DNA of 33,264 bases from a virus, in the IMG/VR virus record IMGVR_UViG_3300025417_000051, positions 1 through 33,264 of that record. One strand, 5' to 3'. Both the position numbers and the translations under genes were made by a program. Of the stretch, positions 3,200 through 32,419 are shown piece after piece. The notes under the pieces are model-generated. The model was not told where the DNA came from. It did no database searches and saw only the letters and a program-made list of their open reading frames with translations. Numbering within the stretch: the first letter of the stretch is position 1; each line of letters starts with the position of its first letter.

Positions 3200-3636
3200 T
3201 ACTTTCGTGAACCATTTCTAAAAAGGTCATCTTCGGTGATTACTCTGAAGGTATACCCTTGAGTTTTACAGTAAGCCATTGCGGCTTGCCACTTTGCATG
3301 ATTAATTGCAACAACAATTTTATCTCTAGCACTTGCCGCACGACTTTCAATTAAACTTTGTTTTTTAGGTTTTATCTCAACAACTTCAGCAATTGATTTA
3401 CCGTACTTGTTTTGATATACTACAAAAAAGTCAGGTATATATTTGTGTATTTTTCCATCTAATGGACTACGATAGGGTATTGCTAATGCTTCACTGGCCC
3501 AATGAGTTACATTATTGTGTGTATCGCAAAATGTCATGAATGTTAATTCCCAACCACTGCGATATTTAGGCTTATGCTGACCTACGTACTTGTGTGGGTT
3601 TTTTGGAGTAAATATACCTTGTGCATAATTTGCCAT
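3199..3636 (-). CDS. gp4: Head completion protein gp4, PD-(D/E)XK nuclease-like
   Basis: This 145-aa protein aligns by eye with T4 gp4 (gp50/65), which is needed to finish DNA-filled heads before tail attachment. Shared landmarks are the N-terminal pattern (F/W)xPKNxxKYxG, the YRSxWE motif (residues 25-30), the WxSExxxIPY block and the terminal (F)RxxTEDxL block near residues 131-138. A nuclease-like core is visible: E30, D69 in KYIPDF, and E87-x-K89 in EIKPKK. In related PD-(D/E)XK folds these residues bind metal. The ATG lies 2 nt after the stop of the upstream 119-aa gene, so the two are translationally coupled. Length and motifs look intact. Confidence 0.88.
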   Translation of the reverse strand: MANYAQGIFTPKNPHKYVGQHKPKYRSGWELTFMTFCDTHNNVTHWASEALAIPYRSPLDGKIHKYIPDFFVVYQNKYGKSIAEVVEIKPKKQSLIESRAASARDKIVVAINHAKWQAAMAYCKTQGYTFRVITEDDLFRNGSRK

Positions 3637-3638
3637 GA

Positions 3639-3998
3639 TTAAAGCACTATGTTACGTGCCACCGGTTGATTTGATTTTGGTATAATAGCTATACCATATA
3701 ATGATGTTTTACTTTTAAAACTATTCAAATAATATGCAAGTATTTGATTTAATTCCATTTTTGTTTTACCTTTTATTTGGTCTAACAAATCAAGCACAGA
3801 TATACCTGTATCTTGTGCTATTCTGAATAAAACAGCAGTAAAATTATTTGCAATAGTTTTTGTAGCACACACGCCTGTAAAATAACTATGTACAATATCA
3901 TATTGATTTGCCGGTACAACCAAATCAAAGGAATAAAAAGAATCAAAGATTCTAATTGTTTGATCTAAATTACTTCTAGTGTCTAATATTTGAGCCAT
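3639..3998 (-). CDS. Conserved-looking small protein between tube initiator and gp4 (119 aa)
   Basis: Not recognised. The sequence reads as a compact helical globular domain (MAQILDTRSNLDQTIRIFDS, then IANNFTAVLFRIAQDTGISV, then KTKMELNQILAYYLNSFKSK) with no signal peptide, membrane segment or catalytic motif. It lies between the gp54/gp48-like gene, whose stop is 14 nt upstream, and gp4, which starts 2 nt after its stop. This location suggests a tail or head-completion accessory protein. A CATAAATA octamer ends 4 nt before the ATG, which may be a late promoter making a nearly leaderless transcript. No good Shine-Dalgarno sequence is visible. The function is unknown. Confidence 0.75.
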   Translation of the reverse strand: MAQILDTRSNLDQTIRIFDSFYSFDLVVPANQYDIVHSYFTGVCATKTIANNFTAVLFRIAQDTGISVLDLLDQIKGKTKMELNQILAYYLNSFKSKTSLYGIAIIPKSNQPVARNIVL

Positions 3999-4002
3999 AA
4001 TG

Positions 4003-4010
4003 TATTTATG
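4003..4010 (-). promoter_or_regulatory. Late-box-like CATAAATA directly before the 119-aa gene
   Basis: CATAAATA ends 4 nt before the ATG at 3998. If T4 spacing holds, transcription would begin at or near the start codon, giving a leaderless message. Confidence 0.35.
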
Positions 4011-4012
4011 TA

Positions 4013-5251
4013 TTAATTAGGCCCGGTATTAGAAACACCTGCATATGGATTGGCAGTTATTTGTTGTGGGCTTCCCGGTGCATTAGGAGGCGTACCTGCA
4101 TTACCATTTGGTGTTGCCCCAAATATCGGAGTAACAACATTTATATTTCTATTTGGTGTTTGTTGCACAGCATTAATAATACCAGAGGTAACTTCGCTGG
4201 CTGCAAGTTGTGTTAAATTTTGATTTTTAAATGTATTGTATGTTGTGCCTGCGGCTTGTACTGCGCCCAACAAATTACCATTGGCTAAATTACTAACCAC
4301 ACCATTAGCACCGTCTACTAAACCACCTTGACCTAATATAGTTGCTTGGCTTCCTGGCTTTGATATAGGGCTTGGTGTCAAATCATAATTAGTTTCTAAA
4401 CCAAATCCAGTAACAATATTACTAGGACTAGCACCACTTATAGCACCGTTGTTATATACTACTGTTTCATAATCTAATGTCATTTGATTTTCCATAATAC
4501 CTGTATTTTCAGCGTAACTATAAGTGTCGTGACTGAAATTAGTGATAATTGGATTTATTAATGTGTATGCTACAAAATTATGTTGGTTGAAACCAAAGAT
4601 TGTAATGTTCTTAAAAAACGGTACTTTTTGTGCACCTGTACTACTAGGAACATTGGTATCTCCTATATAACCCCAAGTAGCATTTCCTGCTATACTAGGA
4701 TCATACTGATTTCTACTGTTATACGTTGCCCCTGTGCTTGATGCCGCAGTACCTCCTTGACCAGCAACACCGCCTTGATTTGGATTTGTTCCTCCACGAG
4801 CACCGGCAAATACAACTTGTGCATTGTTACCGTCTGCATAGTAGTAATTATAATACGCTGTCCATAAACTTCTTATGATACCACCTGCAGTTGGACTGCC
4901 TGCCGCTGTTCCGTTATCATCATGAAACGTTATGGTAATTGGATCATATTTAATTTTAGTTTGTACAATTCTTTTACGATTGTATTGATTTAGTGTAGAT
5001 GTTTCAAAATTAAATTTAGGTAATTGTGCAGTTTTGACATCTAATCCAAAGTTTGCACCAGTGTTTACGTTTTGATTATACGCAGTTGTGTTTATGTCAA
5101 AATAGACATGAAATAGATATTTAAACTTAGGTGCATATTGATATGCATTAGTTCTAAACGTTTTACTTGCGTGAGTGTAATCACGTAGGTAATCGCTGCC
5201 GAAAAATGTGCCGGCAGCGCCTTGTAGTAAATTTTGAATAAATCCAGACAT
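4013..5251 (-). CDS. Baseplate tail-tube initiator/cap, gp54/gp48-like
   Basis: This 412-aa protein carries a tail-tube-type fold signature in its first 110 residues: KFKYLFHVYFDINT followed by a VKTAQLPKFNFET strand, then RKRIVQTKIKYDPITITFHDD. This order (F-x-V-x-F strand, Q-x-P 'tube' strand, then ITITFHDD) is typical of gp19-like tube proteins and of T4 gp54 and gp48, which start tube growth on the baseplate. A Gly/Asn/Ser-rich insertion (about residues 125-195) and a Gly/Pro-rich C-terminal extension (about 290-412) make it longer than T4 gp54 (320 aa). It follows gp19 by 23 nt with a Shine-Dalgarno AAAGGAA and no promoter box, so it is probably co-transcribed with gp19. gp48 versus gp54 cannot be decided here. 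Confidence 0.7.
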   Translation of the reverse strand: MSGFIQNLLQGAAGTFFGSDYLRDYTHASKTFRTNAYQYAPKFKYLFHVYFDINTTAYNQNVNTGANFGLDVKTAQLPKFNFETSTLNQYNRKRIVQTKIKYDPITITFHDDNGTAAGSPTAGGIIRSLWTAYYNYYYADGNNAQVVFAGARGGTNPNQGGVAGQGGTAASSTGATYNSRNQYDPSIAGNATWGYIGDTNVPSSTGAQKVPFFKNITIFGFNQHNFVAYTLINPIITNFSHDTYSYAENTGIMENQMTLDYETVVYNNGAISGASPSNIVTGFGLETNYDLTPSPISKPGSQATILGQGGLVDGANGVVSNLANGNLLGAVQAAGTTYNTFKNQNLTQLAASEVTSGIINAVQQTPNRNINVVTPIFGATPNGNAGTPPNAPGSPQQITANPYAGVSNTGPN

Positions 5252-5274
5252 GGATTAATTCCTTTAATTACGCA

Positions 5275-5907
5275 TTAAACTGATGCACCAATACCAGTAG
5301 CCAATGATCCAAGTGTTCTACCAACTGTTGCACCAACACCAGAACCAATTGGTGACTGAATTGCGTTATCAAAGCGTAGTGTCAATGAAATTGTAACTAC
5401 TTCGTTAGTACCGTAATTTAATGTATTGTAGTTTGCTGTTTGTACAAAGCATCCATATAGTTCCCATGTTTCTAAAACTATTGGAGCACTTGTTCCGTTA
5501 CCACCATCTAAAACTTCAATATTTGTTTCAAATTTATAGTCTTGACCAGTTGCCGCACTTGCTTGTTCAACAAAGTCCATTTGTTTCTGAATTTGTTGAC
5601 CAATCAATGCAGATACTGAGCCTGATGCATCGTCACGAATATTGATAGTCATTGTTTGCCATTGTGCTTTACCAGCCAAATACATTGTTGAGTTGTAAAT
5701 TGGAAGTGTAATTTCTTGGAACTGAATTTGTGGTCTTGAGCAATCAATAACCTGTTTTGTTAAGTTTACTGTACTTCCACCTGTACCAAAATTCAAAAAG
5801 TTAACTCTGAATCTGAACTGTAATTTTGGCATTAGTAAGCCCTGATTGCCACTGGCGTTATCAGATGCTACTGTCATGTTGTACAATGATTGTGAGGCTG
5901 TTGCCAT
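5275..5907 (-). CDS. gp19: Tail tube protein gp19
   Basis: This 210-aa protein follows the sheath gene, as gp19 follows gp18 in T4 (gp19 163 aa). It has the tube-fold pattern: LQFRFRVNFLNFG (residues 29-41), CSRPQIQFQEITLPIYNST (about 71-89), then the TMTINIRDDASG strand. The second half has paired strands with a conserved W-E-L-Y-G-C turn, where tube subunits usually carry an (E)LxGCF-type motif. The C-terminal tail is Gly/Ala-rich. It has its own late-promoter box GATAAATA 22 nt upstream and a strong ribosome binding site AGGAG. A perfect hairpin separates it from gp18. This arrangement allows tube to be made independently of sheath. The extra length relative to T4 lies in the N-terminus and the Gly-rich tail. 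Confidence 0.85.
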   Translation of the reverse strand: MATASQSLYNMTVASDNASGNQGLLMPKLQFRFRVNFLNFGTGGSTVNLTKQVIDCSRPQIQFQEITLPIYNSTMYLAGKAQWQTMTINIRDDASGSVSALIGQQIQKQMDFVEQASAATGQDYKFETNIEVLDGGNGTSAPIVLETWELYGCFVQTANYNTLNYGTNEVVTISLTLRFDNAIQSPIGSGVGATVGRTLGSLATGIGASV

Positions 5908-5928
5908 TTTTGTTTCTCCTGTTAATCT

Positions 5929-5936
5929 TATTTATC
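5929..5936 (-). promoter_or_regulatory. Late-promoter box of gp19
   Basis: GATAAATA lies 21 nt before the gp19 ATG, with AGGAG between. It allows tube-protein transcription independent of the sheath gene. Confidence 0.65.
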
Positions 5937-5943
5937 TAAAGTA

Positions 5944-5963
5944 GATAGCCCTTTCGGGCTATC
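5944..5963 (-). promoter_or_regulatory. Perfect 8-bp hairpin between gp18 and gp19
   Basis: On the minus strand GATAGCCC-GAAA-GGGCTATC forms a stem with a GNRA tetraloop right after the gp18 stop. It lacks a U-tract, so it is more likely an mRNA 3'-end stabiliser or processing signal than a full terminator. Confidence 0.6.
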
Positions 5964-5964
5964 A

Positions 5965-8900
5965 TTAAGCACCATTAGATGATGATATTGCTCCGGTATT
6001 TAACACTCTAACTGGAATGTAGATGAATTCTGCTGCCTTAACTGGCTCGATTGCAACGTCAATCCATAATTCATTTCTATCAATTCTAGCTGGAGTATTG
6101 TTACTTTCGTCACAAACTACCAAATAATCGTATATACCGCGTTTAGCAACTAAATCAATAAGCAATGTTTGAACAACACCTGAAATTTGATTGCGTGTTA
6201 ATGCATCGTTAGGCTCAAATACGAATGGTCTTGCCGCTATTGTTAATTGTCTACGTAAGTAAGCAATTAGTCGTGCAACATTTGTTCTATCTAACGCACT
6301 ATTAGATGCATAGCTTGTTTTGTTACCAAAGTTCAATAGACCAACACCAGTAAAGAATACTAATGGATTGATGTAATTGATATACAATGTGTCACGAATA
6401 CCAAGGTTAGTTTTGATCGTAATAAATTGACCAGTTGTTCTATCTAGATAACCAATGTTTGTTGCATTATCAATAATACCACGACGTGTACCTGCTGCCG
6501 CAAACCAAGGATAAGCAATAGTATCATTGCGTAAGAATGTACGAATCATCATGTGACTTGGTGGAACAGCAACTAAGTTACCTGTCAAATCAGTTGTTAA
6601 ACCACTTGGATAGAATAGACCTAAATAAGTGTCACGTGTAACGCAACCTTGCTCGTCTGTTCTTGGAGCACCTGCGGCATTTGTAGCCCATGCTTGAATT
6701 GCAGTAGCACTAGCCGGAAGTCCCATTGGTGTGTCACCTAAAATGTATCCTGTGTCACCACGGTCTGCATTTAATACAACCATGTTAGGTTGTAGTTCTT
6801 CATAGTAAGGACATGCAATTAAATTAAAATAGTTGTCTTCATCACGAATATCTGTGTTAGTATCAACAACACTACTCAATGATTTAACTACCATTTCACG
6901 TTGAGCAAATCTACCCATGTAAGGAGCACCATTAGTTTGATTACCACTTGCTGTTACCCATGTATAACTGAACTCTGGTAAGTTACCAACTGTTGTAGGA
7001 GCACTTGGATTATAAGGATTAGCATTAGGATAATTTGCACTTGTAAAATAATTTGTTCTAAATTGTTTTACATTATATCCTGAACGGCGCGTATTCCATA
7101 AAATCATACCATTTGGATATAGTGAAGGATCCGGAGCATCTAAGTCAATATAGTTACTAGTTAGCAAACTTTGAATTGTTGGGATAGGATCGTTAACTGG
7201 ATCAATAGCACCAGAACTTCCCCAACGTGCATCTTCAAATATAATACCAGTACTGCTTGTATCTGCTGTATTATTAATCAATACCCATGTATTTGAACCA
7301 TTGACTAATTGATAACGATATATCAACGGATATAATTCTAATGCATCAATGCCAGTATCAATCCAAATATCACCGTATTGTAATGATGTACCATCACTTT
7401 GTACTGTTGGTTGACTTGCACTCATGATAGGACCATTTGGATCAGTATTGTTACTACCAGTGTGTGCTGGGAAACCAGATGTGTCATAAGCTAAATTGTT
7501 ATAACCATTCCATTGACCATTGTAGTTAACCATTAAATCAACTTGGTCATTAACACTATAGAACCAGTTAGTGTAATCAGCTGGTAATGTAGCTGGAGCA
7601 CCGTTATTTGATGCATATGTAAATGATACCCAATTACTTAACTGAGTTGCATATATTTGCGGAATTGCATTTCCAGAAACATATGTTACTGCTTGAATTC
7701 CACCGCTGATTACGCTAACAACTTTAAGTACTAAATCATTAGCTGGAGTAGTACCACCTAAACTTGTACCTGCAATTGTTACCGTGTCGCCTGCGGCATA
7801 ACCTGTACCTGCAGTTACTATACAGTTATTAGCTATTATGTACTCACCGTATTGAGGTGATACTCTGAAGGTAGCACCTGTACCACTACCTGTAGTACTA
7901 GTTGGTGAAACTGTAAATATTTGAGCATATGAAGGTCCATATTTTACTCCACTAGTTTCATCTGCAACAATACCAATCTGTGCTAATACACCACTATGTT
8001 TACCTTCATTTGAACCAGATATTATGGCATCATATAAAAGAATCTCACCACCTGCGGTGTGTGTTAATTGAATAGCGCCGTCTGTAGTAACACTTGCTGT
8101 TGTATAGGGTGCTCCTGCAGCCGCCCATGAAGTAACAAAATCACTAGGACTCATGCCATTTGAAATAGACATATTGTAATAAGTAGACAAACTTGTAGAA
8201 CCCGGGATACTTACCCTGATACCCATAATAGTTGGACTATCTAGAATACCACTTAATGTCCAATTTGTTGTTGTACCAGTAATTACTGTAGGTCCAGTAG
8301 CTATGCGATTCCATAAATACACTGGCCCTTGATTGTAACCACCATCAAATCCATATTGTGCATAAACTGTACCAGCTGGAATAGCTTGACCACCTGTTGC
8401 ATCTAATAAAGAATCTACAGTCCAATCAGCAGTTGCCGTTAATACTGATAATGCTTTCCAACTTTGTGTCACACCATTATATTGAGATACAACTGGATTT
8501 AAACCAGTTGTTGATGTGGCCACTTGAATCCATACTGATCCAGTTGGAGCAGGTTGTGCTTGACTTTTAGACCATAATGGCATTTGAGCAGATGTACCGT
8601 ATGCTACTGATGGTTGAAAATAATATGCAGGAGTAACAATAGAACCAAACAATGCTGTTAATAACTCTGTTGTACCAGTAACTATTTCTAGAAACGGACG
8701 TTGTCCTGGTAATTCTGGTTGTGCTGAAAAAATATTTAATTTTCCAGATATTACCGATGCACTAATATAAGTATAACCTAAATTATTAATTGCTGTAGCT
8801 AATCCTGCTACAGTATTGTTAGGACTTCCTGGAACGGCTACTGTAAAGTTAAAAAAGCCATTCATGTTAAATTCAATAGTGTCACCTGCAACTAATGTTG

Positions 8901-9600
8901 GGTTGGAATTTGTACTTTGAATAGTTGGCCAATCATTAGCCCAGTCACTAGATCCTACAACTGCCCATGTATTATTAGAAGTTTTGTAAAAATATTGACC
9001 ATATTGGTTAGGTGCACTTGATGGAATTTCAATTGCATTTACTGCATAGTCACCTATGTTACCAATACTTTGTAACGGAACTTCTCCGCTTAATTGATCT
9101 GCTTGATATATTACAATAGGATTCATTAAAGAGAATGTTCCCGTTGTAGCATCAAATTCATTAATACCCCATGTACTATTGATAGTATCTAACCAATATG
9201 TGCCGGCTGCCGGAGCGCCAATTGGACGACTTGTTGAACCTACTAAACTTGCTAAATCAATATCAGCACGAATAACATAACAACGATTGGAAACACCTAA
9301 TGCGCTGTAAGCCGCTAATAGACCATATTCATTTAATTCATATCCTTGAATCGGTGTACCATTAGTTGTTGTGTAGAAAAATGGAGTACCATAATTTTGC
9401 ACTAAGTCTTGTTGACTTGTAGCCAAATATAATTGACCCGCATTTGCTAATGTAGTACCAGGAGCTACGCCTGTACCTGATGGATTAGATTTGTTTTGTG
9501 CTGTTGCAATAATTACTAGTGGAACAGAGCCGGTTGAGGCTGGTAAATATTGACTCTGGTCAATGATATCTACTTCTACGCCTGGTGATGATAATGCCAT
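5965..9600 (-). CDS. gp18: Contractile tail sheath protein gp18, greatly enlarged
   Basis: The N-terminus (MALSSPGVEVDIIDQSQYLP) and the C-terminal ~330 residues are those of T4-family sheaths: LNADRGDTGYILGDTPMGLP, then LRNDTIAYPWFAAAGTRRG, INPLVFFTGVGLLNFGNKT, NVARLIAYLRRQLTIAARPF and a final ELWIDVAIEPVKAAEFIYIP strand used for subunit handshaking. At 1211 aa it is nearly twice T4 gp18 (659 aa). The extra mass is inserted at roughly residues 130-830, is rich in Thr/Ser/Gly/Asn and holds several related small modules (GTYWLDT, GSVWIQV, GDIWIDT). These probably decorate the outer surface. A late box AATAAATA lies about 55 nt upstream, and the ribosome binding site AAGGAAAAA precedes the ATG. 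A terminator for the upstream transcript lies just before that box. Confidence 0.93.
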   Translation of the reverse strand: MALSSPGVEVDIIDQSQYLPASTGSVPLVIIATAQNKSNPSGTGVAPGTTLANAGQLYLATSQQDLVQNYGTPFFYTTTNGTPIQGYELNEYGLLAAYSALGVSNRCYVIRADIDLASLVGSTSRPIGAPAAGTYWLDTINSTWGINEFDATTGTFSLMNPIVIYQADQLSGEVPLQSIGNIGDYAVNAIEIPSSAPNQYGQYFYKTSNNTWAVVGSSDWANDWPTIQSTNSNPTLVAGDTIEFNMNGFFNFTVAVPGSPNNTVAGLATAINNLGYTYISASVISGKLNIFSAQPELPGQRPFLEIVTGTTELLTALFGSIVTPAYYFQPSVAYGTSAQMPLWSKSQAQPAPTGSVWIQVATSTTGLNPVVSQYNGVTQSWKALSVLTATADWTVDSLLDATGGQAIPAGTVYAQYGFDGGYNQGPVYLWNRIATGPTVITGTTTNWTLSGILDSPTIMGIRVSIPGSTSLSTYYNMSISNGMSPSDFVTSWAAAGAPYTTASVTTDGAIQLTHTAGGEILLYDAIISGSNEGKHSGVLAQIGIVADETSGVKYGPSYAQIFTVSPTSTTGSGTGATFRVSPQYGEYIIANNCIVTAGTGYAAGDTVTIAGTSLGGTTPANDLVLKVVSVISGGIQAVTYVSGNAIPQIYATQLSNWVSFTYASNNGAPATLPADYTNWFYSVNDQVDLMVNYNGQWNGYNNLAYDTSGFPAHTGSNNTDPNGPIMSASQPTVQSDGTSLQYGDIWIDTGIDALELYPLIYRYQLVNGSNTWVLINNTADTSSTGIIFEDARWGSSGAIDPVNDPIPTIQSLLTSNYIDLDAPDPSLYPNGMILWNTRRSGYNVKQFRTNYFTSANYPNANPYNPSAPTTVGNLPEFSYTWVTASGNQTNGAPYMGRFAQREMVVKSLSSVVDTNTDIRDEDNYFNLIACPYYEELQPNMVVLNADRGDTGYILGDTPMGLPASATAIQAWATNAAGAPRTDEQGCVTRDTYLGLFYPSGLTTDLTGNLVAVPPSHMMIRTFLRNDTIAYPWFAAAGTRRGIIDNATNIGYLDRTTGQFITIKTNLGIRDTLYINYINPLVFFTGVGLLNFGNKTSYASNSALDRTNVARLIAYLRRQLTIAARPFVFEPNDALTRNQISGVVQTLLIDLVAKRGIYDYLVVCDESNNTPARIDRNELWIDVAIEPVKAAEFIYIPVRVLNTGAISSSNGA

Positions 9601-24616: not shown

Positions 24617-24937
24617 TTAAACTCTAAAACTTTCTCCGCAACCACAACGGTCACGTTCATTTGGATTTTGAAATTCAAAGCCTTCATTTAGACCATTTCT
24701 CACATAGTCTACAGTCATGCCTTGCAAGTAAGCGCAACTTTTTGGGTCTACAAATAACGCACAGCCATTACAATCAAGTTTAATATCATGTTCTTGTGGA
24801 TCGTCAACATATTCCAATACATAGGCTAAACCAGAACAACCTGTGGTTTTGACACCTATGCGAATGCCTAAACCCTTGCCACGTTTGGCTAGTGTTTGTT
24901 TGATTTTGTTAATTGATTTTTCTGTTAGAGTTATCAT
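24617..24937 (-). CDS. A-type Fe-S cluster carrier (IscA/ErpA/HesB-like)
   Basis: The 106-residue protein has the A-type signature: KTTGCSGLAYVLEYVD with C34, and the C-terminal pair RCGCGESF with C98 and C100. These three cysteines bind the cluster in IscA, ErpA and SufA. The length (105-110 aa) is typical and no domain is missing. In cells these proteins carry Fe-S clusters to apo-enzymes. In a phage the protein probably supports host or phage Fe-S enzymes during infection; the client is unknown. An exact TATAAATA box ends 5 nt before the ATG, and no Shine-Dalgarno is seen. Downstream genes (glycosyltransferase-like B and A, nuclease) follow with gaps of 1 to 10 nt. Confidence 0.9.
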   Translation of the reverse strand: MITLTEKSINKIKQTLAKRGKGLGIRIGVKTTGCSGLAYVLEYVDDPQEHDIKLDCNGCALFVDPKSCAYLQGMTVDYVRNGLNEGFEFQNPNERDRCGCGESFRV

Positions 24938-25539: not shown

Positions 25540-26250
25540 TTATCTCTTTGCTCTACCAACTCCGCCAGTTGGTTCTTCTTCTGGTTCTTCTGGAAAATTC
25601 AATTCAGGTTCTTCTACAGGTTCTTGTTCTGGTTGTTCAACTTCTTCTTCACCTGCTAATTCACCATCGTCAAATGCCTCTTCTTCACCTGCGCCAAATG
25701 CTCCTGCATCCATTGCTTGACCAGTGATACCATTTAATGCTGATTGTAAACCTGATTTAGTTTCTGTTACTGATGCTTGAAGGGCTGTTAATGCTTCGCT
25801 TACTTGACTGTTGAACTGTTCGGCTTCATTTGCACCAATTTCACTTTGAATACCTGTTGTTAATGCAGGTAATTCTTTAACTAACATGTCACTAACTTCC
25901 TCTAACATTTTTTGTACGCTGTCAACTAAATCTTGTGCAGCCAATACAACTTGTGACTTTTCAACTTCTTCATTTTCAACAACAATACGTGGTTGAGGAC
26001 GATTACGCAATTCATTATAGTGATGAACCAATGATTGCTCCATGAACACTAACTTCATGTATGAAGGAGATGTTTGTTCTTGGTAAAAGTTAACTGATTG
26101 TTTTGATTCTTTAATTAAACCGCGAACTTTATTAAGCATACTTTTTGTAGATGCCATTGGCATTTTTGCTACATTGAAAGGCATCTCATAGTGTTCTTTA
26201 AGTGCTTTTGTTGCACTATTTTTGTTGTTGTCAAGGTCGTGTAGTTTCAT
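25540..26250 (-). CDS. Acidic helical candidate scaffold/structural protein (236 aa)
   Basis: No named family is recognised. Residues 1-175 are predominantly helical with coiled-coil character (KSMLNKVRGLIKESKQSVNF, then QVVLAAQDLVDSVQKMLEEV). Residues about 186-230 are extremely acidic (repeated Glu/Asp with EEEVEQPEQEPVEEPE), ending in a short basic GGVGRAKR. Acidic helical proteins of this size are common as prohead core or scaffold components in T4-like phages, but this is inference from composition. A late box GATAAATAC lies about 28 nt upstream and a TGGAAT ribosome binding site precedes the ATG. The 111-aa gene follows after one base. Confidence 0.72.
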   Translation of the reverse strand: MKLHDLDNNKNSATKALKEHYEMPFNVAKMPMASTKSMLNKVRGLIKESKQSVNFYQEQTSPSYMKLVFMEQSLVHHYNELRNRPQPRIVVENEEVEKSQVVLAAQDLVDSVQKMLEEVSDMLVKELPALTTGIQSEIGANEAEQFNSQVSEALTALQASVTETKSGLQSALNGITGQAMDAGAFGAGEEEAFDDGELAGEEEVEQPEQEPVEEPELNFPEEPEEEPTGGVGRAKR

Positions 26251-27794: not shown

Positions 27795-29042
27795 TTATCT
27801 ACTGCCAAAGTTTTGACGGCTAAAGCCCATTCTGTCTACATATTTGTATCCGTTAGCAACAAAGCCTTCTTGTCCTTTAGTACCATCATCTAATGAACCC
27901 TGTACTGGGCTGGCTTCTGCGGCTTTGTTTAGTTGATTTAATATCTCAGTTTTTAACTGATACACAGCAATCCATATATGCATCAATGCATCTACGCCGG
28001 CTTTGTTTGCAGGAATATGTCCTGGATATTCTTTTCCTGTTTTCTTGTCAGTATAACCTGTTAATAGTTTTTGTTTCATTGGACCTGTTAATGGTCTTGA
28101 CTCAATGAAGTCATAAAAACCCTGTGTTAAATTATTCAAGTTACCATCACGTATTTTCTTATTAAAATAAACACCAATTAAGTTGTTTGCAAATGTGCTA
28201 GGATTAATTCCCAAGTAACTTGTGTCTAACAGTTTATCTAATGCAGGGCCATACTTGGCCAATTCTGATTTAAGATGTGCTATTTCAGCTTTAGGAACTT
28301 GAATCTTAGGTGTTTGTGGCATTTTGCTAGGTAATATAGCAACATCAGAATTATTCTTTAATCCACCTAACTCACCATTTAATGATACTGCTAAATCGGT
28401 AGCATGTACTTTTTCCCCTGCGGCTGTCATTTGTGTTGCTTTTTCTGCGGCATCAGCTTGAATATACTGATGTACTGCAATACCTGCAGTTTTTCCTGCT
28501 AACTCATGCCCAATTTCACTATTTGCTTGTACTGTGTATGTAATGCCGTTTGGATTGGCTTTGAAAATGTATAAACCATTTTGGTCTTTTAATGGCTGAC
28601 TAAACAATAAGTCACCCCAATAATATCCCTTTGTGCCTTTACTTGACTTTTCTAAGCCAGGCCATATTGTTGGAATAATAGATGCCAACCCACTACGCTC
28701 GACACCACGTGCTTTATCGTATTCAATAAATTGTTCAGGGCTATAAATTGCACGACCTGAACCATCAGGCTTATTAAACATATGCTTGTCGCTGATACTA
28801 AACTTACCATTAGTACCATGACCAAATATCAATGCAGGATATCCGTCCCACTTAATAGTAGCAGTTTGTGGCTTTTTAATAGTAGCCTCTACGGATTTTA
28901 ATGCATCTTGTACACCTGCAGTGCCTTGCAAGTATACGCTGTCTTCTAAGTGAGGGGCATGTCCGCCTGTAAAGGCTTCATTGATAACTGATAGGCTATC
29001 AATCTTAGCTTTAAGAATTGCTAATGATTCTGATAGATTCAT
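27795..29042 (-). CDS. Ligase/nucleotidyltransferase-like protein with capsid-targeting N-terminus
   Basis: I place the start at ATG 29042 (MNLSESLAILKAKIDSL), one base after the upstream stop. A longer start at 29096 would overlap that gene by 53 bp. Residues 17-23 (LSVINEA) form a gp21-type site INE/A, so the first 22 residues look like a capsid-targeting peptide. The motif TIKWDGYPALIFG (K-W-D-G, about residues 63-75) matches motif I (KxDG) of ATP-dependent DNA/RNA ligases and capping enzymes, where Lys takes AMP or GMP. A following GKFSISDKHMF and a YYWGDLLFS block sit where motifs Ia and III are expected. Motifs IV and V are not clear, so activity is uncertain. The C-terminal ~170 residues form a helical domain. 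Confidence 0.72.
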   Translation of the reverse strand: MNLSESLAILKAKIDSLSVINEAFTGGHAPHLEDSVYLQGTAGVQDALKSVEATIKKPQTATIKWDGYPALIFGHGTNGKFSISDKHMFNKPDGSGRAIYSPEQFIEYDKARGVERSGLASIIPTIWPGLEKSSKGTKGYYWGDLLFSQPLKDQNGLYIFKANPNGITYTVQANSEIGHELAGKTAGIAVHQYIQADAAEKATQMTAAGEKVHATDLAVSLNGELGGLKNNSDVAILPSKMPQTPKIQVPKAEIAHLKSELAKYGPALDKLLDTSYLGINPSTFANNLIGVYFNKKIRDGNLNNLTQGFYDFIESRPLTGPMKQKLLTGYTDKKTGKEYPGHIPANKAGVDALMHIWIAVYQLKTEILNQLNKAAEASPVQGSLDDGTKGQEGFVANGYKYVDRMGFSRQNFGSR

Positions 29043-29043
29043 G

Positions 29044-30684
29044 TTATGCCGCCGTTTTTTTAGTTCTAGTTTTCTTAGGCTTTGCAGTTTTAGCAAAATC
29101 TATTTTACTATCTAAATCTTTTGCCTTGTTAGGATTTGTAGCACTTGATGTATGACGTACGCCAGTACCTGTAGGCGTTGATGTTCCACCTGTGCTAGAT
29201 TTCTTCTGACCCATTGTGTCTAATTGTCTTGCCATATTACCAAATGCACTAGGTGCTTCTGGTTCTTGCTCTGGTTCTTGTTTAGCGGGTGCAGAACTAA
29301 CTCCTAAACTCTTTTCAATATACTTTAATATACGTTGCTTACCCTTTTTATCTAATTTAGATAACAATGGCAATGCTTGTTTATATGCAGTTTGTTGTTT
29401 TGCAGGTGTAGCAGTTGCAGTTGGTTCTGTTGTGGGTGCGCTGGTTCCAGCAGACGCTGTTGGTTGAGCCACAGCAGATGTACTAACTGGTTCTGTTGAT
29501 GTTGTTTGTTCTGGTTCAGCTTTACCTAATCCCTGTTGGACGCCAGCCTTGATTGCATCCAATGCACTTTGTGGTTGTGCAGTAGCATTTGCTGGTTCTT
29601 TTCCATTGCCTTGACTATAACTTGTTGCAAATGCTAACTCAGCCATTTTACTCAACGGTGCTTTAATGTTTGGATAACTCTTTTGTACCTCGTCAGCTAA
29701 CGCTTTCATTTGCGATAATGCTTGTGGATCACTTACTTTACCGCCCATGTATTGCTTAAACATATTTTGCAAATATTGACTGATAGTTTGTTTTGCTGGT
29801 TGTTCCCCGGCTTCAACTATAGATTCAAACAATGCATCAAGTTTATAGAATTTACTTTCTTTCATTGATGCTTGAATATTTTGTGTGGCAGCTTGTTGCA
29901 ATCTCATGCGTTTTTGTGCGGGTGTTTCTGCTTGCGGTGCAACTGGCTTAGGAGTCATGGTTGCTTGTGCATTTTGTGCGGCGACTCCTTGTTTTTTCTG
30001 TCTGATATTAGCTGATTGTTTTTGTACCTGGTCTGCTGGTAGTTTACTGAACGGTGCCATTTGACCTTGTGCATTTTGTGTAGCAACACCTTGTTTTTTC
30101 TGTCTAATATTAGTTGACTGCACTTGTGCTTGATTTGTAGGTAATTTACTAAATGGCGCCATTTGACTTTGTGCAGTTTGTGCCGCGGCGTTTTGTTTTT
30201 GTTGTCTTTTGTTAGCTATTTGTGTTTGTGTTTGGTTAGCTGGTAATTTACTAAACGGAACAGCTTCTTTATCTATATTTTGTTGTGCGGCTTTTTGTAA
30301 TCTAATGCGTTTTTGTTCTGGTGTTTCTGGTTCAGCTTGTGCTGGTTGTGCGTTAGTATTAGCGTTAGGCTGTGTTGCATTAGGACTAGCATTGTTTTGA
30401 TTAGCCTGCGGACTAGTGTTAGCAGGGGTAGTTGATTGTGCGGGTTGTGTACCTGCTTTGGGATCTACCAGTCCACTTTTAATTGCGCTATTTAAGTTTG
30501 TATTTGCTCTACCAATAAAATCTGCTATAAATTTTTGTTTAGCCATTTTATCTTTAATAGATAATTGGCCCTCAGGATTACCTGTAATTCTGTTGCCAAT
30601 TTGTTTAACGGCGGCAGAACCATAGTCACCTAGTACATGACTTAAGTTGACTTCATCAACTTGTTTAAATTCGTTTAGTTTCAC
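29044..30684 (-). CDS. Gln/Ala/Pro-rich repeat protein, candidate internal virion protein (546 aa)
   Basis: The start is GTG at 30684, supported by GAGGAAAA upstream, inside the end of the 84-aa gene. The N-terminal domain (MKLNEFKQVDEVNLSHVLGD, residues 1-75) is globular. Residues about 75-140 are Asn/Gln/Pro-rich linker. Three 34-residue repeats beginning PFSKLP occupy 143-244, bounded by paired TPxQKRxRLQxAAxQNI segments. Residues about 280-360 form a helical domain (KFYKLDALFESIVEAGEQPA, containing an IVE/A gp21-like site), followed by a Thr/Pro-rich spacer and a basic Lys-rich tail (KPKKTRTKKTAA). Low complexity with a basic tail suits a DNA-associated internal head protein, like T4 internal proteins. 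It is coupled to the ligase-like gene. Function is inferred. Confidence 0.75.
   Translation of the reverse strand: MKLNEFKQVDEVNLSHVLGDYGSAAVKQIGNRITGNPEGQLSIKDKMAKQKFIADFIGRANTNLNSAIKSGLVDPKAGTQPAQSTTPANTSPQANQNNASPNATQPNANTNAQPAQAEPETPEQKRIRLQKAAQQNIDKEAVPFSKLPANQTQTQIANKRQQKQNAAAQTAQSQMAPFSKLPTNQAQVQSTNIRQKKQGVATQNAQGQMAPFSKLPADQVQKQSANIRQKKQGVAAQNAQATMTPKPVAPQAETPAQKRMRLQQAATQNIQASMKESKFYKLDALFESIVEAGEQPAKQTISQYLQNMFKQYMGGKVSDPQALSQMKALADEVQKSYPNIKAPLSKMAELAFATSYSQGNGKEPANATAQPQSALDAIKAGVQQGLGKAEPEQTTSTEPVSTSAVAQPTASAGTSAPTTEPTATATPAKQQTAYKQALPLLSKLDKKGKQRILKYIEKSLGVSSAPAKQEPEQEPEAPSAFGNMARQLDTMGQKKSSTGGTSTPTGTGVRHTSSATNPNKAKDLDSKIDFAKTAKPKKTRTKKTAA
29953..30258 (-). repeat. Three tandem 102-bp (34-aa) repeats in the 546-aa protein
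   Basis: Units begin PFSKLPANQT, PFSKLPTNQA and PFSKLPADQV and each ends in Q-x-M or T-M. Copies 2 and 3 are nearest to each other (shared NIRQKKQGVA). Confidence 0.85.
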
Positions 30685-30919
30685 GATTTTTCCTCAATGA
30701 TTTGGAAAACTTAGTTTGATCCTTGCTTTTAATTGCACCTAAAAGTTTTCTTTCAAGCATTTGAGCCTCTTCTTCGGTATAATGTTTATTAATTAACTCA
30801 ACTAAGTTAATTGCACTAGTAATTATACTGTGGGCTCTACTCTCAATAACATGTGATGTATCACGGTTATTTCCAAGTTCTTCCAGTTCCTGCAATAGTG
30901 AGCGGGTTTGTCTTTGCAT
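30665..30919 (-). CDS. Small helical protein of unknown function (84 aa)
   Basis: The 84-residue protein (MQRQTRSLLQELEELGNNRD...) is helical and strongly basic at its C-terminus (SLRKNRETKRI). It has a late box CATAAATAC 22 nt upstream and an AGGAAAT ribosome binding site. Its last 20 bp overlap the start of the 546-aa gene and contain that gene's Shine-Dalgarno, so it leads a three-gene late unit with the repeat protein and the ligase-like protein. No domain is recognised. Confidence 0.75.
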   Translation of the reverse strand: MQRQTRSLLQELEELGNNRDTSHVIESRAHSIITSAINLVELINKHYTEEEAQMLERKLLGAIKSKDQTKFSKSLRKNRETKRI

Positions 30920-30964: not shown

Positions 30965-32419
30965 CTATTTCTTTAATGAATTGAGTAACGATTTTAATTT
31001 TGAACCCTGTACATCTGCTACAATGTGTTTAGTGACTGGTTCCAGTATTTCACCTGTCGCTTGGTTAATGATAGGTTGCGTTGCAACTAATGTCGCTTGA
31101 GGTTTAATTATGTTCATTAGTTCATTTGGACTAGGTTGTTGATTTGGACGATAATTACTTTCATCTTCACCAGGATCAGTAATACGCATTGTTTCAATGT
31201 TGTACTCTAAGTCAATCTTTTGTCCAACACCTGTTGAACTACGACTTTTCATACATTGAATTTGATATTTACCACGTTCACGCATACTACGACTTGTAAA
31301 GATACCAAACACATTATCCGCAGTATTAATCTTACTGATACCACCTGCAATATGACTATGGTCAAATTCGATTTCTTCAACTGCACTACGATTCAACTGA
31401 CTTGCAGTTACCATGAGAATTCCAAGTTCTTTTGATAAATTACGCAATTCTTCACTAACGTATTTGTCTTTGATAAACTGGTCGTTAGGATTAACTTTAA
31501 CACTTACAGGCATAACCAAATCTAAGTAATCAACCATAACAAAATCAATTTTGATACCAGTTTGAATCTGCACTTCTTTTAGATAGCTACGAATATCATT
31601 TACAGTACTTTGCGCAGGTAATCCTTTCACTCTATATGAGCCTGATTTTTTACCTGCCATTTTAACTTTTAATTCAGTTACTTCAATATCTTTGCGAATA
31701 TCACGGGTACTCATGCTAGTTAACATAGCATCTGTTCTAAGACTAGTTAATTCTTCACTCAATTCTAAACTGATATAAACACCACTAAGTCCCTTTTGTA
31801 ACCAATTCAACGCAATATTCATCATAACCAATGATTTACCTGAACCACTACCACCTGCAAAGATATTCAATTCTCCACGACTGAAACCACCATATAGTAG
31901 TTTATCCATTTGTGGCCAGCCTGTGCTGACTTGTCCACCTGCATTAAAATACTTGTTGATACGTGTTTTAGGGTCTGCAAAATAATCTGTACCCATGTCT
32001 TTTTGTAGACTGATTTGTACAGCATCTTTAATCATTTTCTCAATAGGGCCATAATCACCACGTTTATCCAACATGTCAGCCGCTTTAAGAATCGCACGTT
32101 CTAATTCTTGTCGTTTAGTGAATTGTTCAAAGTTATCTAGGAACCACTCAAAATGTCCTTCGTTTAGATTTTCAATGGGCTGAATATCAATACCCGTCAG
32201 TGCCTTAATCTGTGCAGGGTCTGGTAATACTTTATATTTGTCTGTGTGTTCTTTGAACATTTCCGCTACTGGACGCAATGACTTATCAAAGTTTTCACTA
32301 TTCATAATGTTCATGACCCGAGTATATAACTCAGCATTTGTCAACATCATGGACAAGAAAAACTGTTGCGTTGCAGTATTATATTCTATTTGTTCTTTAG
32401 AATCCGTTTTGTTTGCCAA
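30965..32419 (-). CDS. gp41: Replicative DnaB-family helicase, gp41-like
   Basis: The 484-residue protein has Walker A GGSGSGKS at 189-196, Walker B with D297 in VMVDYLD, and DnaB-type motifs MVTASQLNRSAVEE and a SKINTADNVFGIF block, plus an arginine-finger-like region MRERGKYQIQCMKSRSSTG. The N-terminal 150 residues are the DnaB-N/primase-contact helical domain. As a ring hexamer it unwinds DNA 5'-3' at the fork and recruits primase. The start is TTG at 32419, chosen because a strong ribosome binding site (AGAGGAAAA) lies 5-7 nt before it inside the primase gene. The 23-bp overlap with primase shows coupling of the two replisome partners. Confidence 0.93.
   Translation of the reverse strand: MANKTDSKEQIEYNTATQQFFLSMMLTNAELYTRVMNIMNSENFDKSLRPVAEMFKEHTDKYKVLPDPAQIKALTGIDIQPIENLNEGHFEWFLDNFEQFTKRQELERAILKAADMLDKRGDYGPIEKMIKDAVQISLQKDMGTDYFADPKTRINKYFNAGGQVSTGWPQMDKLLYGGFSRGELNIFAGGSGSGKSLVMMNIALNWLQKGLSGVYISLELSEELTSLRTDAMLTSMSTRDIRKDIEVTELKVKMAGKKSGSYRVKGLPAQSTVNDIRSYLKEVQIQTGIKIDFVMVDYLDLVMPVSVKVNPNDQFIKDKYVSEELRNLSKELGILMVTASQLNRSAVEEIEFDHSHIAGGISKINTADNVFGIFTSRSMRERGKYQIQCMKSRSSTGVGQKIDLEYNIETMRITDPGEDESNYRPNQQPSPNELMNIIKPQATLVATQPIINQATGEILEPVTKHIVADVQGSKLKSLLNSLKK

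Follow-up and report, generated by a model that had tools for sequence, protein, structure and literature searches.

The virus record IMGVR_UViG_3300025417_000051, a fragment of ~33 kb analyzed here over its full 33,264 bases (the window), carries a gene of the DUF6267 family (PF19782) whose product we interpret as a divergent ligase-like nucleotidyltransferase that would be packaged in the phage head and injected. Taken as one combined statement, this interpretation is about evenly poised; degrees of likelihood here and below are our own estimates and were not computed. Computation establishes the family, its invariant motifs, the predicted fold, and a leader pattern that runs through the family. 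A preliminary description, made from the letters of the window alone, had proposed that a ligase or nucleotidyltransferase is injected with the DNA; the enzyme half of that proposal is now backed by motifs IV and V, by invariant residues, and by two structure models, while ligase chemistry, substrate, and injection, like adenylylation, cleavage, and packaging, are steps that we infer. The gene and its landmarks are as follows, each with its basis in brackets.

27795..29042, minus strand: DUF6267 (PF19782) protein, predicted ligase-type nucleotidyltransferase, 415 amino acids (Pfam, PHROG, AlphaFold model, VIA)
28977..29042, minus strand: N-terminal leader, residues 1-22 (MNLSESLAILKAKIDSLSVINE), predicted capsid-targeting propeptide with a predicted gp21 cut after E22 (leader statistics, disorder in the model, gp21 in relatives)
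28842..28853, minus strand: motif I KWDG, residues 64-67, with K64 the predicted nucleotidyl-lysine (invariance, motif survey)
28611..28616, minus strand: motif III-like GD, residues 143-144, in YYWGDLLF (D144 invariant)
27915..28292, minus strand: helical insert, residues about 251-376, lying between motif III and motif IV (secondary structure of both models)
27858..27869, minus strand: motif IV EGFV, residues 392-395 (E392 and G393 invariant)
27831..27845, minus strand: motif V KYVDR, residues 400-404 (K400 and R404 invariant, fold alignments with the Naegleria RNA ligase)

As we picture it, DUF6267 would belong to the covalent (lysyl-) nucleotidyltransferases and would most likely be a polynucleotide ligase that uses ATP, with a fold nearest to that of the nick-sealing RNA ligases. 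K64 would take up the AMP, in a pocket completed by E392 and K400. The 22-residue leader of the precursor would dock the enzyme on the core of the prohead, cleavage by gp21 after E22 would follow, and the mature enzyme, beginning at A23, would stay in the head, enter the cell with the DNA, and seal nicks or repair RNA there before phage gene expression.

With respect to family membership, the window protein matches Pfam DUF6267 with an E value of 9.9e-37 (127.6 bits against a gathering cutoff of 27) over its full length, residues 28-413 lying on profile positions 3-373 of 376, and it also matches phrog_455. Its reading frame runs from an ATG at 29042 to a stop codon that ends at 27795, and the plus strand across the same interval holds many stops. 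With a cyanophage member as query, relatives were found in 464 phage records, mostly from cyanophages, plus Pelagibacter, Methylophilales, Stenotrophomonas, Vibrio, and Pseudoalteromonas phages. The family is annotated as T4-GC 71 in P-HM2 (PHM2_162) and S-PM2 (S-PM2d138), Syn9 gp183 is also a member, and a compact subfamily of ~300 amino acids with a shorter helical insert occurs in Syn9- and P-RSM1-type phages. The window clade and cyanophage T4-GC 71 are alike in the full-length family match, the neighborhood after the gp41 helicase, and the invariant motifs; they differ, at about 25% identity, in the 22-amino-acid leader of the window clade, whereas the T4-GC 71 members seen are leaderless. 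Essentially, DUF6267 is a phage gene: a cellular origin was considered and rejected, as only 33 loci turned up in about 85,000 species genomes, scattered over unrelated drafts, which is the pattern that binned phage contigs would be expected to give. The preliminary description had presented the protein as an unexpected combination of motifs; the motifs are real, and the protein belongs to an already known and widespread family, present in Kyanoviridae and in other T4-like phages, hundreds of them from ocean and fresh water, and so far labeled as of unknown function in Pfam, which that description had not recognized. A literature search on DUF6267, Syn9 gp183, and a packaged ligase returned no usable paper.

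The KWDG motif described earlier is present at residues 64-67, and its K64, D66, and G67 are invariant in a set of 15 and in a set of 62 diverse members; the K, D, and G of motif I are also invariant in the compact subfamily. Across the 62 members the invariant positions further include D144, E392, G393, K400, and R404. Motifs IV and V, which had been called unclear, can both be located at the extreme C terminus, where the long helical insert has displaced them; the order of motif I, then IV (EGxV), then V (Lys) is the one expected of the covalent nucleotidyltransferase superfamily. Of 107 members, 105 satisfy strict motif I, IV, and V patterns, and each of the two exceptions misses a single one. 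Judged from the alignment, the invariant residues of DUF6267 are of catalytic type.

Structure prediction and a fold search, which the preliminary description had suggested as a check, were run on two models. The AlphaFold2 model of the window protein, built on a 62-sequence alignment, has a predicted local distance difference test (pLDDT) score of 91.4 and a predicted template modeling (pTM) score of 0.87; the AlphaFold model of a compact-subfamily member, built on a separate alignment, reaches 92.4 and 0.88. Upon realignment with VIA, where our statements refer to the 50 matches listed per model, 50/50 were covalent nucleotidyltransferases for the window model and 50/50 were nucleotidyltransferases for the compact model, although carbonic anhydrases were common among the Foldseek candidates of the latter. 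The Naegleria gruberi RNA ligase (PDB 5COT and the 6VT series) came top for both, with Z 7.7, root mean square deviation 4.1, and 184 aligned residues for the window model and Z 8.0 for the compact one. Further listed matches of the window model include T4 Rnl2, TbREL1, DNA ligases, Trl1, and T4 Rnl1, and archaeal RNA ligases are also among the listed matches of the two models. In the Naegleria enzyme the alignments stop near residue 339, 13 residues past K326 (mutated in PDB entry 6VT3 and taken here as motif V); their end points on the other side are residue 413 in the window protein (K400+13) and residue 299 in the compact protein (K286+13).

In both the Naegleria enzyme and DUF6267, KxDG comes first and the Glu motif and the Lys motif follow in matching order; they differ in that they show no sequence-level similarity and in that a helical insert separates motif III from motif IV in DUF6267. 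The Naegleria RNA ligase has an N-terminal OB domain. T4 Rnl1 and Rnl2 are fold neighbors as well (VIA Z 5.4-7.2 and 5.0-6.7, respectively) with the same order of ligase motifs, but their accessory domains differ from those of DUF6267, and hhalign finds no match to Rnl2. We know of no head-targeting leader in the T4 RNA ligases.

Several results weigh against this assignment. The best Foldseek matches in the PDB, an archaeal ATP-dependent RNA ligase for the window model (E 0.34) and a bacterial NAD+ ligase for the compact model (E 0.08), are not significant. A VIA Z near 8 lies inside the range given by the tool for models that lack a clear match. Neither the window protein nor the family matched the Pfam ligase families searched (including PF01068 and PF09414), phmmer and hmmsearch against PDB ligase sequences gave no match, and hhalign of the whole family against T4 Rnl2 relatives gave a probability of 0.1%; the trimmed core and the compact subfamily did not match those relatives either, nor did NCBIfam and PADLOC searches return a ligase. 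Membership of DUF6267 in a specific known ligase family is not supported at the sequence level. Furthermore, motif V of the window protein is followed by neither an OB fold nor a motif VI, and the 15 residues that remain after K400 leave no space for an OB domain. Weighing both sides, we regard a nucleotidyltransferase core as likely for DUF6267. A ligase-type core is likely because the fold matches of the models come together with the invariant residues, each line alone staying below certainty, and we lean toward a ligase rather than an enzyme of some other nucleotidyl transfer.

The distribution of ligase genes bears on what such an enzyme would do. In ten Kyanoviridae-type phages (Syn9, S-SZBM1, S-CREM2, S-SCSM1, S-PM2, P-HM2, Melnitz-3, HTVC008M, P-RSM6, and S-WAM1), DUF6267 is present in 10/10 and PF01068, PF01653, and PF09414 ligases in 0/10, the reverse of T4, where canonical ligases are present and DUF6267 is absent; the preliminary description had not noticed this lack of canonical ligases. 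DUF6267 may therefore be the missing ligase of the Kyanoviridae, a pattern that is suggestive only, because four other DUF6267 phages also carry a canonical DNA ligase. A 2010 review reported that homologues of the g30 ligase were not found in cyanomyoviruses and left open unrecognized distant homologues, its authors favoring the host ligase as a substitute (PMC2984593). On this basis DUF6267 might serve mainly as a replication and repair ligase in the infected cell, replacing T4 gp30 in phages that lack it, with a leader that in some clades is secondary or no targeting signal at all. Its position would suit that role, since in many phages the gene lies in the replication cluster between the gp41 helicase, which precedes it by a few genes, and the primase, often just ahead of a cytidylyltransferase-like gene; the failure to see leaderless members in virions (below) would suit it too. 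Against it stand the phages with both genes, which make the distribution not complementary, the lack of an OB domain, the review's preference for the host enzyme, and the conserved [LI]xE leaders, which it leaves unexplained. We consider a mainly replicative role a tentative possibility. Equally tentative is a double role, in which DUF6267 would be the sole ligase of T4-like cyanophages (the missing gp30) and, with an added T4-type leader, a head-packaged and injected ligase in window-type relatives.

The evidence for packaging begins at the N terminus, which reads MNLSESLAILKAKIDSLSVINE/AFTGG (slashes mark predicted cuts). As first noticed in its LSVINE/A ending, I20-N21-E22/A23 fits the T4 gp21 cleavage rule L/I-x-E (PMC9026906). 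By itself, one [LI]xE is weak evidence, with about 20% of shuffled leaders showing it. At the level of the family, the pattern is not chance: 27 of 32 non-redundant leaders have [LI]xE among the 12 residues that precede the core (the other 5 lack it), against 6.5 ± 2.2 in shuffles and a maximum of 17 in 10,000. Among the 62 aligned members, 53 bear a leader and 9 do not, the first residues of the latter already belonging to the conserved core (MSKNTHLEHLED is an example). Leader-bearing DUF6267 proteins also occur in isolates, among them Stenotrophomonas phage DLP6, Pelagibacter phage HTVC008M, and Methylophilales phage Melnitz. A start-codon artifact was considered as the origin of the leader; it is countered by the in-frame ATG and by dozens of relatives in which a conserved [LI]xE immediately precedes the core.

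Thirteen of the leaders share the layout of T4 IPII/IPIII (MKTYQEFIAE/A, AF158101), such as MKKFRQYITE/S and MKSYNQYLAE/A, with an aromatic residue or Leu at positions 4 and 7, Ile or Leu at 8, and Glu at 10. This is in line with IPIII genetics, in which targeting depends mainly on residues 4 and 7 and processing on residues 8 and 10 (PMC9026906). T4 IPII/IPIII and Alt are like DUF6267 in having an N-terminal peptide that ends in L/I-x-E, whereas the mature DUF6267 protein is an unrelated ligase-like enzyme. In the AlphaFold2 model, residues 15-26, which include the predicted cut, are disordered, and the gp21 prohead protease (PF03420) is encoded on the contigs of two relatives (L036 and L044, ~200 kb each, the window being only a 33-kb fragment). 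A 207-amino-acid protein at 2055-2678 of the window (minus strand), which has no PHROG match, starts with the strict IPIII-type leader MKSLKQYIVE/S; near head-closure and tail-tube genes, it is a candidate for another packaged protein.

Three cyanophages with published virion proteomics, S-SZBM1, S-CREM2, and S-SCSM1, allow leaders to be compared with virion content. A genome-wide scan for IPIII-type leaders returned very few open reading frames per genome, one of which in each case encodes a cytidylyltransferase/NMNAT-like protein. All three of these proteins were detected in virions: S-SZBM1_140 with the leader MRFRQFIIE/A (PMC9146016), S-CREM2 gp154 with MKNFSSFLTE/A (PMC10665884), and S-SCSM1_91 with MKSFLQFLKE/A (PMC9602691); the cluster T4-GC190 is also present in S-SM1 virions (PMC3037559). 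The scan also gave two small leader-bearing frames in S-SZBM1 and one loose match each in S-SCSM1 and S-CREM2. The virion cytidylyltransferase/NMNAT-like protein (T4-GC190) resembles DUF6267 in that their genes adjoin in many phages and their leaders are of the same type, but it belongs to the CTP_transf_like (HxGH-type) family and does not have a ligase fold. The S-CREM2 (OR473000) virion table includes, in addition, a CRISPR-Cas9-like nuclease and a SAM hydrolase (PMC10665884).

Two observations count against packaging of the window protein. Its leader, at 22 residues, exceeds the 10 residues of the IPIII peptide and lacks the IPIII-like residues at positions 4, 7, 8, and 10, and the DUF6267 proteins of the three phages, namely S-SZBM1_141, S-CREM2 gp87, and S-SCSM1_257, all leaderless and the last two of the compact type, are not in the virion lists. 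The data from the three phages fit a rule in which leader-bearing proteins are packaged and leaderless ones are not, a rule that would extend to the window clade by analogy. The earlier claim of head packaging is supported by the leader pattern and by a leader-bearing partner found in virions, and it is weakened by leaderless family members that went undetected there. If the N-terminal extension were ordinary and variable and the protein never packaged, the lack of leaders among compact-subfamily members and many cyanophages, the non-redundant leaders that lack the motif, and the absence of any DUF6267 protein from the virion data examined would be expected; the excess of [LI]xE over shuffled leaders, the agreement of 13 leaders with T4 IPIII at position after position, and the presence of this leader on partner proteins confirmed in virions would not, and we think this explanation unlikely. 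That the window protein is packaged and cut by gp21 seems to us moderately likely.

The cytidylyltransferase-like gene also bears on the reaction. In S-PM2 (S-PM2d138, L154:3992-5764), DUF6267 is naturally fused to a CTP_transf_like domain, which argues for a pathway shared with the virion cytidylyltransferase-like protein, perhaps, as speculation, one of nucleotide or NAD+ chemistry as infection begins. The nucleotidyltransferase fold could accordingly serve another job, such as RNA capping, RNA 5'-adenylation, or modification of proteins or small molecules, possibly together with the neighboring NMNAT/cytidylyltransferase-like enzyme. Motifs I, IV, and V are common to ligases and capping enzymes, DUF6267 is without ligase-typical accessory domains, and the fusion and the adjoining genes point the same way, but the nearest folds are RNA ligases and capping enzymes hardly appear among the matches listed (one, at Foldseek rank 2 for the compact model), so that we hold such a job to be distinctly improbable. 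A catalytically dead, structural internal head protein is least credible and very improbable, since a structural role, although it would suit the packaging signature and the adjacent low-complexity partner gene, has no need for catalytic-type residues that are invariant at about 25% family identity. In one relative (L086), an adjoining upstream gene (50-1006) and DUF6267 (976-2211), both beginning with clear leader-like peptides, are accompanied by a 913-amino-acid cytidylyltransferase-like protein (3302-6043) with DUF192 and weak HNH matches.

The genes upstream of DUF6267 in the window are as follows.

29044..30684, minus strand: upstream partner, 546 amino acids, Ala/Gln/Pro-rich, low-complexity (ends 1 base before the DUF6267 ATG)
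30665..30919, minus strand: 84-amino-acid protein, match to phrog_11854, head and packaging, virion structural protein (PHROG match)
30965..32419, minus strand: gp41-type DnaB-like replicative helicase, a landmark conserved upstream of DUF6267 genes (profile matches, same order in relatives)

The spacing of the first of these bears out the tight coupling to a candidate internal protein that had been noted earlier. In a relative (L047, 2957-5149), a single open frame spans the upstream gene and DUF6267, which meet at an LVE/D site, so that, by its sequence, the fused product looks like a cleavable precursor. The helicase, tail sheath, tail tubes, and head-closure protein mark the window as T4-like; megablast of the window region against isolated phages found no close relative, and a search for plasmid copies found none. 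Elsewhere on the minus strand we observe an acidic 236-amino-acid protein at 25540-26250 that matches phrog_14154 (virion structural protein), a 106-amino-acid protein at 24617-24937 that looks IscA/ErpA-type (iron-sulfur) by its CGCG motif and matches phrog_17776 (function unknown), a tail sheath of 1211 amino acids at 5965-9600 (phrog_10581 being 915 positions long), and, in tandem after it, two tail-tube-like proteins at 5275-5907 and 4013-5251.

If the interpretation of DUF6267 as a packaged ligase-like enzyme is true, a gene of hundreds of T4-like cyanophages would have a predicted product, a ligase-type enzyme whose catalytic residues can be named, and it would become directly testable how DNA or RNA ends are joined in these phages in the absence of a recognizable ligase. 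The leader rule may help to spot other packaged proteins in T4-like phages. A ligase-like enzyme would then be delivered in the phage head beside a virion-borne NMNAT-like enzyme, which hints at an injected repair or counter-defense kit.
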